A stretch of DNA of 28,754 nucleotides from positions 1 to 28,754 of IMG/VR virus record IMGVR_UViG_3300024339_000061, one strand, 5' to 3'. Shown piece by piece: positions 1-3,832 of this stretch. Origin of the DNA: a virus. Made by a program: the position numbers and the translations under genes. Each line of letters begins with the position of its first letter. Position 1 is the stretch's first letter. Under the pieces are notes generated by a model. The model was not told where the DNA came from and made no database searches. It worked only from the letters and a program-made list of their open reading frames with translations.

Positions 1-101
1 TCATTTCCTTGTGTGAATGCGTCTGTATCACAAGGGTCGATGTGACTCATAGCAACTAATAGAGCATCAATCGCTTGTTTAATTGTTTGGTTGTGTTTCA
101 T
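1..101 (-). CDS. Small hypothetical protein, 3' end beyond the window
   Basis: Starts at ATG 101 and reads MKHNQTIKQAIDALLVAMSH..., open through 33 codons to the window edge. A GAGAG stretch a few bases upstream can serve as ribosome binding site. It is the last visible member of the leftward early operon and lies directly beyond the attC site at 141-209. The N-terminal part looks helical. I do not recognise a family, and the truncation hides its length. Confidence 0.5.
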   Translation of the reverse strand, partial: MKHNQTIKQAIDALLVAMSHIDPCDTDAFTQGN

Positions 102-140
102 AATAATTATCTCTCTATTAGCTTCATCCTCAAATTATTG

Positions 141-209
141 CTAACAATCACTTCAACTCGGACCTTCACTGCGCTGGCGCTCCGTTCAGTCCGGTTAAGT
201 GGGCGTTAG
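141..209 (+). mobile_element. attC: Integron attC recombination site (59-base-element type)
   Basis: The arms fold exactly as an attC site should. CTAAC (141-145) pairs with GTTAG (205-209). There is an unpaired spacer, AAT against GGC. CACTT (149-153) pairs with AAGTG (197-201), AAC (155-157) with GTT (194-196), and CGGAC (159-163) with GTCCG (189-193). Two bases on one arm only, C154 and T158, are left extrahelical. The 25-base centre contains GCGC-TG-GCGC. The R box runs on as GTTAGA. Outer stem, unpaired spacer and one-sided extrahelical bases are the structural hallmarks IntI uses on folded bottom-strand attC. The site lies between two small leftward genes. No integron integrase is in the window. 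Confidence 0.8.
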
Positions 210-215
210 AAGGCG

Positions 216-383
216 CTAATCGACTGTCCGTCTACGAATTTCATTTCTAAGAGCAGCACACTCAAACATCTTCAGGTCTTTTGTTACGCGCTCCCATTCT
301 TTTAGTGCGTCCTCCAGTCTGTCGTCATTAATCATTTCTGCAATATCATCAGCCAGCGTGTGGATTGGTGCTTTCATTTTCAT
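216..383 (-). CDS. Small hypothetical protein, 55 aa
   Basis: Reads from ATG 383 (or ATG 377, better spaced from the GGAGAAG just upstream) to TAG at 216-218. The product is charged and probably helical, with an acidic N-terminal half (ADDIAEMINDDRLEDAL) and a basic tail (RNEIRRRTVD). It is flanked on its 3' side by the attC at 141-209 and on its 5' side by the attC-like element at 404-429, so it sits like a small cassette. No family recognised. Confidence 0.6.
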   Translation of the reverse strand: MKMKAPIHTLADDIAEMINDDRLEDALKEWERVTKDLKMFECAALRNEIRRRTVD

Positions 384-403
384 TCTTCTCCATTATTTGC
401 CTT

Positions 404-429
404 CTAACTACACTTCAAGTGGACGTTAC
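404..429. repeat. Collapsed attC-like element
   Basis: The order is CTAAC, TA, CACTT, C, AAGTG, GAC, GTTAC. These are the outer two stem boxes of the attC at 141-209 in the same order and orientation, with the inner boxes and variable centre missing. Both elements are bordered by a GTTAGAAGGC word, on + at about 205-214 and on the complement just before the gene starting at 383. It could be a deletion product of an attC site or a chance hairpin. Confidence 0.4.
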
Positions 430-619
430 AGAAGGTCCGGCAGAGCCGCCCCCGAAGGGGCATTTTAATTTGTGTCGTTATGCCGTAATAGCCTTCCATG
501 CCGCGAAGCCGCTCTCTGTCATTCTCGGTATCTGGCGGGATAAGTATTGCCGCGCATTCTGCGGTAGCCCTTCTTATCAGCTCCAAATCTTCTTGTGATA
601 CTACTGCGTATTTACTCAT
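404..619 (-). CDS. Small hypothetical protein, 71 aa
   Basis: The preferred start is ATG 619 (MSKYAVVSQEDLELIRRATA...), because GGAGAAG lies 5-6 bases upstream. An in-frame ATG at 631 lies before that site. The N-terminal 30 residues look like a helical phage protein. The C-terminal residues (CNVHLKCS) are encoded inside the attC-like element at 404-429, so the original C-terminus may have been replaced. Function unknown. Confidence 0.55.
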   Translation of the reverse strand: MSKYAVVSQEDLELIRRATAECAAILIPPDTENDRERLRGMEGYYGITTQIKMPLRGRLCRTFCNVHLKCS

Positions 620-631
620 CTTCTTCTCCAT

Positions 632-3606: not shown

Positions 3607-3655
3607 TTCTCGTTCTCTAAAATTAGGTTGGTCAGTTTCTTGAGTTGACCAGCTC

Positions 3656-3832
3656 CCTTGCCTCGCCCCGCCGAGCCACGCCGCGCCTAGCCTGGCCGCG
3701 CCTTGCCTGCCTTGCTTTGCCTTGCCTAGCCGCGCCTGGCCCTGCCATGCCTAGCCTAGCCACGCCTGCCTTGCCTTGCCCAGCCACGCCTGGCCCTGCC
3801 ATGCCTCGCCTGCCTTGCCTTGCCCAGCCCAG
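3656..3832. repeat. CCNNG pentamer array 1
   Basis: About 35 near-continuous units of CCNNG (CCTTG, CCTCG, CCCCG, CCGAG, CCACG, CCGCG, CCTAG, CCTGG and so on). The outer CC..G stays fixed while the two inner bases vary. Occasional 4-base CCTG units break the phase. A block GCCACGCCTGGCCCTGCCATG-like appears in near-repeated form. On the transcribed minus strand the RNA reads CNNGG. The array lies between the 153-aa gene and the helicase gene. The plus-strand ORF across it is a low-complexity shadow. Confidence 0.95.

Follow-up and report, generated by a model that had tools for sequence, protein, structure and literature searches.

The window analysed here (the whole stretch of 28,754 bases, a linear tailed-phage record) carries at 139-211 what its sequence and predicted fold identify as a true, structurally intact integron attC site. 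The site lies in an early operon and faces against the genes around it. This reversed polarity of genes and attC sites recurs across scattered attC-bearing phages, a pattern that is new here. We think it probable that the attC site of this early operon is functional now or was so recently, that it is used in trans by a host IntI and that it belongs to a reversed-gene phage cassette.

The inverted boxes R''/R' and L''/L', the TAAC...GTTA core and the conserved spacers are all present (Table 1). The preliminary description had placed the paired boxes, a spacer and two one-sided extra bases at 141-209, exactly where the sequence has them. The extrahelical bases C154 and T158 are confined to the L'' arm, like in known attC sites. 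Because both lie on this arm, the polarity of the site is plus, and the polarity score is unambiguous (44.0 forward vs -25.9 reversed). Most bases of the spacers AAT and GGC stay unpaired when the fold of the bottom-strand sequence is predicted. The bottom-strand pfold is 0.82, compared to 0.31-0.92 in ten bacterial sites. The crossover in the R' box is established integron biochemistry, 5'-G|TTRRRY-3' (as quoted in PMC9892861).

Table 1. Coordinates of the attC element and of the features around it in the window.
Feature	Position	Strand	Basis or remark
attC site, R'' to R', 7-base outer boxes included	139-211	+	R1 39.1 bits full length, shuffle score, pfold
R'' box CTAAC	141-145	+	sequence; pairs with 205-209
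spacer AAT	146-148	+	sequence
L'' box CACTT-C-AAC-T-CGGAC, extrahelical C154 and T158	149-163	+	sequence
attC loop	164-188	+	sequence
L' box GTCCG-GTT-AAGTG	189-201	+	sequence
spacer GGC	202-204	+	sequence
R' box GTTAG, expected crossover G|TT	205-209	+	sequence; crossover from integron biochemistry
start of next small gene, MKHNQTIKQAIDALL..., runs off the window	1-100	-	sequence
block of 99.2% identity to two phages with no other DNA-level relation	1-130		ends 8 bases short of attC
55-aa ORF, antisense to attC; stop TAG just outside the inverted R' box	216-383	-	ORF list, polarity scoring
possible decayed attC, centre missing, TTCTAAC-TA-CACTT-C-AAGTG-GAC-GTTACAG	402-431	+	suggestive only
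75-aa ORF (MSKYAVV...)	404-631	-	N-terminus resembles the ORF preceding the shared gene in G205

A covariance model built on bacterial sites recognizes the element without difficulty. The search for intI covered first four genomes and then 198 from the order to which a Paraglaciecola MAG belongs; of these 198, 98 were positive. The flanks of 40 intI genes were retrieved, and attC sites were located there by structural search. The model (R1) was built from 37 non-redundant attC sites of such IntI-flanking bacterial arrays, with zero phage sites in the training set. On the bacterial arrays R1 reports 166 sites at E up to 0.1 (training sites counted). On the window it reports a single match, 139-211(+), with 39.1 bits over all 49 model positions, which is within the bacterial range (E = 3.7e-9 for 1 kb and 1.1e-7 for the whole record). 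A separate position-plus-pair score is 44 for the site, against a maximum of 11 over 60 shuffled 28.7-kb windows, and it gives no second match elsewhere in the window. The site agrees with the training set in all 14 columns that are invariant or nearly so. The outcome of covariance-model detection, which the preliminary description had proposed as a check, is thus clearly on the side of an attC site. With filters off, R1 also gave a truncated local match of 19.7 bits; we regard this as a local-alignment artefact and used the default full-length alignment for the verdict.

BLAST of the window site against plasmids and phages gave no match, and a joint BLAST search of phages with 18 phage attC sites gave only chance matches of 21-28 bases. 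An exact search for the L'-R' pattern in viral contigs found, besides the window, only matches that are not attC. Two attC-like sequences, one in a gammaproteobacterial MAG (L007:6469-6546) and one in a Paraglaciecola MAG (L009:1541-1598), have an L'-R' identical to that of the window site, and both genomes encode IntI.

The record encodes a CI-like repressor, a DNA polymerase, helicases, a primase, a terminase, a portal and a major head protein. Repressor, polymerase and a helicase are on the minus strand, in agreement with the early operon of the preliminary description. The attC site occupies the gap between two minus-strand ORFs (216-383 and the gene starting at 100). As had been noted before, it points opposite to its neighbours; canonical cassette polarity is not what we find here. 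For the 55-aa ORF, neither PHROGs and Pfam nor phages and viral contigs gave a homologue, and a search of viral contigs for relatives of the helicase and the small ORFs found none.

Only one intact attC site, together with a possible decayed one, is visible, and the record contains no IntI. The linear contig ends about 139 bp from the site, hence any array to the left is hidden. A complete integron (intI plus attI) was not found: this record, a fragment, has no TIGR02249 match. The likeness of the element at 402-431 to the intact site is reached by 8 of 1000 shuffles of the 1-kb region, yet by 17 of 60 whole-window shuffles, and its half-site score by 215 of 3000 shuffles for 1 kb and by 89 of 100 for the whole window. 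As a firm second attC it was rejected, since it is not significant over the full window, and we keep it as suggestive. Adjoining it, within the minus-strand ORF 404-631, is a strong hairpin of the type GCCCC-CGAA-GGGGC with a T-rich tail (448-461, +). Another intergenic gap holds a 56-aa ORF of low complexity (MAGPGVAGQGKAGVARLG...; 3632-3802, -), in which A, G, R and Q are abundant and which is probably non-coding.

To place the window site among other phage sites, about 2.9 million viral contigs were scanned with two gene-blind patterns and the matches rescored with R1. This yielded 33 loci with 60 sites that score 20 bits or more. The roughly 30 attC-bearing records bear out the earlier remark that phage attC sites are uncommon. 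The pattern describes short gammaproteobacterial-type sites, and R1 did not detect published phage sites of other types (TJE1, P12002L, MW202573), which the polarity counts leave out.

In viral contigs most genes run against their attC sites. Judged by the nearest upstream stop, 13 viral sites are sense, 35 antisense and 12 have none (n = 60). The same procedure on bacterial sites gives 89 sense, 3 antisense and 11 none (n = 103; p = 9e-19, with sites that are non-independent, some loci coming from one contig, as L179/L205 and L201/L208 do, or sharing sequence). Because a phage gene beside the sites can look like the gene of a cassette, we added a test on interior genes. The longest ORF between successive sites, used to call gene polarity without a gene finder, is sense in 10 cases, antisense in 19 and unclear in 7 in viral contigs, compared to 120, 5 and 7 in bacterial arrays (Fisher p = 6e-13). 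The polarity of the sites themselves is secure (score margin at least 25, median 54). Of the 35 antisense phage sites, 23 have the gene's stop codon, TAA, placed exactly within the inverted R' box, at the crossover point. We had taken each antisense stop as the mark of a cassette gene and corrected this: in the sister phages described below (L158/L165), the antisense stop belongs to a flanking phage gene.

Two simple causes of the reversal do not apply. Bacterial short-site arrays (L121, L141, L144, L145) also carry sense genes, so site length is not the cause. Nor can the inversion of a whole captured array explain the pattern, because genes and sites turn together. The preliminary description had remarked in passing that cassettes around this site would be unusual, antisense ones. 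This is the important point, because reversed polarity holds in many attC-bearing phages. In one viral contig (L163:12853-13653) a DNA methyltransferase gene (217 aa) fits exactly between two reversed attC sites, and its stop TAA falls in the R' box. The C-terminal end of this enzyme is similar to that of a methyltransferase fragment (L162:15-236), which likewise ends in attC.

Two sister phages differ by what looks like one cassette. L158 and L165 are identical over 6.1 kb and differ by one precise 449-bp R'-to-R' cassette (L158:6445-6504, L165:1230-1738). In L165, sites A and B are 449 bp apart. When A is joined at G|TT to the sequence beyond B, the predicted product agrees with L158 over 348 nt with 0 mismatches. 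Apart from GGCGTTA (7 bp), A and B are dissimilar, and homologous recombination or a repeat-induced misjoin is therefore unlikely at this junction. The other side of site A is a repeat of about 55 bases and is less safe. The difference is the one expected from attC x attC recombination, as a loss or a gain alike. Because at least one cassette gene at this locus is sense to its attC, the pair shows cassette dynamics and not the reversed type.

The window itself shares its first 130 bases with the phages G205 and G209 and has DNA similarity to them nowhere else; their proteins are only distantly similar (portal 31%). The first 33 aa of the minus-strand gene that starts at 100 are identical in both. 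The block lies at the contig end, where assembly is least reliable. Where the identity to the window stops, G205 reads GCATAGTTAGGC, which may be the remnants of R' and R'' after loss of the hairpin. The related phages G205 (L222:1-670) and G209 (L225:1-670) each contain two intact reversed attC sites that flank a 94-aa gene near methyltransferase genes; in G205 these sites are further upstream than the GCATAGTTAGGC junction. The N-terminus of the window's 75-aa ORF resembles the G205 ORF listed in Table 1 by 47% over 17 aa (E = 2.6e-4 in a two-sequence comparison). The near-identical block and the excision match between L158 and L165 are both new here.

The exchange that we observe is at attC sites between or within phages. 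The preliminary description had gone further, to the capture of integron cassettes or exchange with host integrons. Of this, the intact phage attC opposed to its genes stands, and the exchange is seen only among and within phages.

The site could be a dead relic, a stray piece of a host integron brought in by illegitimate recombination. It would then be intact because it arrived recently, and inert, with its reversed polarity due to chance. A window with a single intact site and a possible second, decayed one, a record without IntI and a G205 that apparently has the same junction with the hairpin lost all fit such a history. Against it, reversed polarity recurs over unrelated phages with stop codons in frame in R', sister phages differ by an R'-to-R' cassette, and decay would not preserve a fully paired stem with a pfold in the bacterial range. 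We consider a dead relic unlikely.

We give much less credence to an intercistronic hairpin that acts at the RNA level (in processing, in protection or as a weak terminator), mimics attC and spreads by homologous recombination like the PeSL discussed below. Such a hairpin does not need the attC rules that are conserved here (AA after TAAC, GGC before GTTA, one-sided extra bases), and R1 was trained only on bacterial attC sites. The transcribed strand folds well as RNA (z -2.67), and sites of this kind sit between co-directional genes with a stop codon at the stem base, as an RNA element might. Yet the L158/L165 break falls inside 7 bp between otherwise dissimilar sites. An Rfam scan for known RNAs found none near the site, and neither strand of 139-211 has a terminator-like site (a G+C-rich hairpin followed by a T run). 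Viral loci with a related DNA polymerase (n = 76) all lack attC, hence the hairpin is not conserved within this phage group. The conserved terminator or RNA that the preliminary description had named as its alternative was thus not found. In addition, the isolated Pseudoalteromonas phage H101 has the same layout, with four attC sites on the plus strand and the genes of its deposited annotation on the minus strand, and two of its sites were in the panel tested with IntI1 (PMC9892861).

Chance resemblance has a negligible probability: short palindromes are common in phage intergenic regions, but the shuffle maximum and the E-value for the record, given above, already refute it.

Among the 31 attC-bearing viral records none has an IntI above the curated cut-off (TIGR02249); weak matches in two are consistent with other tyrosine recombinases. 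We propose that IntI is supplied by the host because no attC-bearing viral record found encodes a full one. Five of six tested phage attC sites recombined with attI1 via IntI1, a P12002L site being the sole failure (PMC9892861). Together with its structure, these assays on other phage sites suggest that the window site would be active with IntI. A phage TerL (phrog_2) is present in 18 of the 31 records; L156 has Mu-type transposase/transposition genes, and L167 has a TerL of another family. The 30 proteins that end at antisense sites include two N6/N4 DNA methyltransferases and one match to a crAss-phage-related family; the rest are mostly unknown.

How might a reversed cassette arise? In coding-strand order it would consist of an inverted attC, a gene and a stop TAA at the R' crossover of the next site. 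IntI may join cassettes at a minimal G|TT. In a packed phage operon, harmless insertions would be those where G|TT complements the TAA|C at a gene's stop codon. Such an insertion would leave the upstream gene whole and orient the attC antisense to the operon. Two of them would convert the intervening phage gene into a mobile cassette. Reversed polarity means that the recombinogenic bottom strand of attC is the coding strand of the phage genes. This could raise recombination, and any lagging-strand effect would depend on the direction of phage replication. That IntI makes these joints, that insertion takes the stop-codon route and that phages benefit from exchanging small early genes, including DNA methyltransferases, are what we infer from the arrangement.

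More tentatively, and with somewhat less than even confidence, we suggest that phages own a cassette type in which the gene is reversed to attC and its stop codon is part of the crossover box. Host integrases would be borrowed, stop-codon insertion would make ordinary genes exchangeable, and exchange would be favoured where transcription or lagging-strand synthesis exposes the recombinogenic, coding strand.

Phage genomes are mosaics of small early genes, whose movement is mostly credited to illegitimate or homologous recombination. If such genes are moved precisely by host integrases acting at attC sites, there is a gene pool common to integrons and phages. This pool would include methyltransferases that may counter host defence. 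Reversed polarity also provides a simple signature for finding such genes (TAACGCC at the gene end) and a testable rule for the origin of cassettes from ordinary genes.

The PeSL of T4-type phages are mobile hairpins in intergenic positions, and they delimit small phage genes that can be exchanged. PeSL cassettes combine an early promoter with a terminator, move by homologous recombination and follow no attC rules. Like them, the window site is an intergenic hairpin beside small genes; only the window site follows the attC rules. PeSL are mentioned in PMC4503421.

Sedentary chromosomal integron arrays share with the window site the attC structure, the sequence rules and the short spacing. They differ in polarity: of the 125 bacterial cassettes that could be scored here, 120 have genes sense to attC. 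Large chromosomal integrons usually have the bottom strand on the leading-strand template, which limits excision; moving it to the lagging-strand template raises excision (PMC5371416, PMC11023631).

Insertion at attG places cassettes outside integrons in bacterial genomes (Loot et al. 2024, as cited in PMC12901181). The entry route that we propose is alike, with IntI inserting a cassette into an ordinary genome where it meets a minimal site. The difference is that attG insertion is known for bacterial genomes, whereas insertion at phage stop codons is what we infer here.

The closest known system is phage-borne. Qi et al. (2023) found integron components in 21 phages in a screen of 10,705 genomes (PMC9892861), thus phage-borne attC sites are already known as a class. 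Shared with their phage-borne CALINs (attC clusters without an integrase) are intact attC sites in phage genomes that lack IntI, with small genes and DNA methyltransferases between sites. At least two sites were required there, so a lone visible site such as that of the window would be passed over. In the parts of that paper drawn on here, the arrays are described as typical or mosaic, and genes and sites facing opposite ways are not reported. Yet in H101, one of its phages, we find that genes and attC sites do face oppositely.
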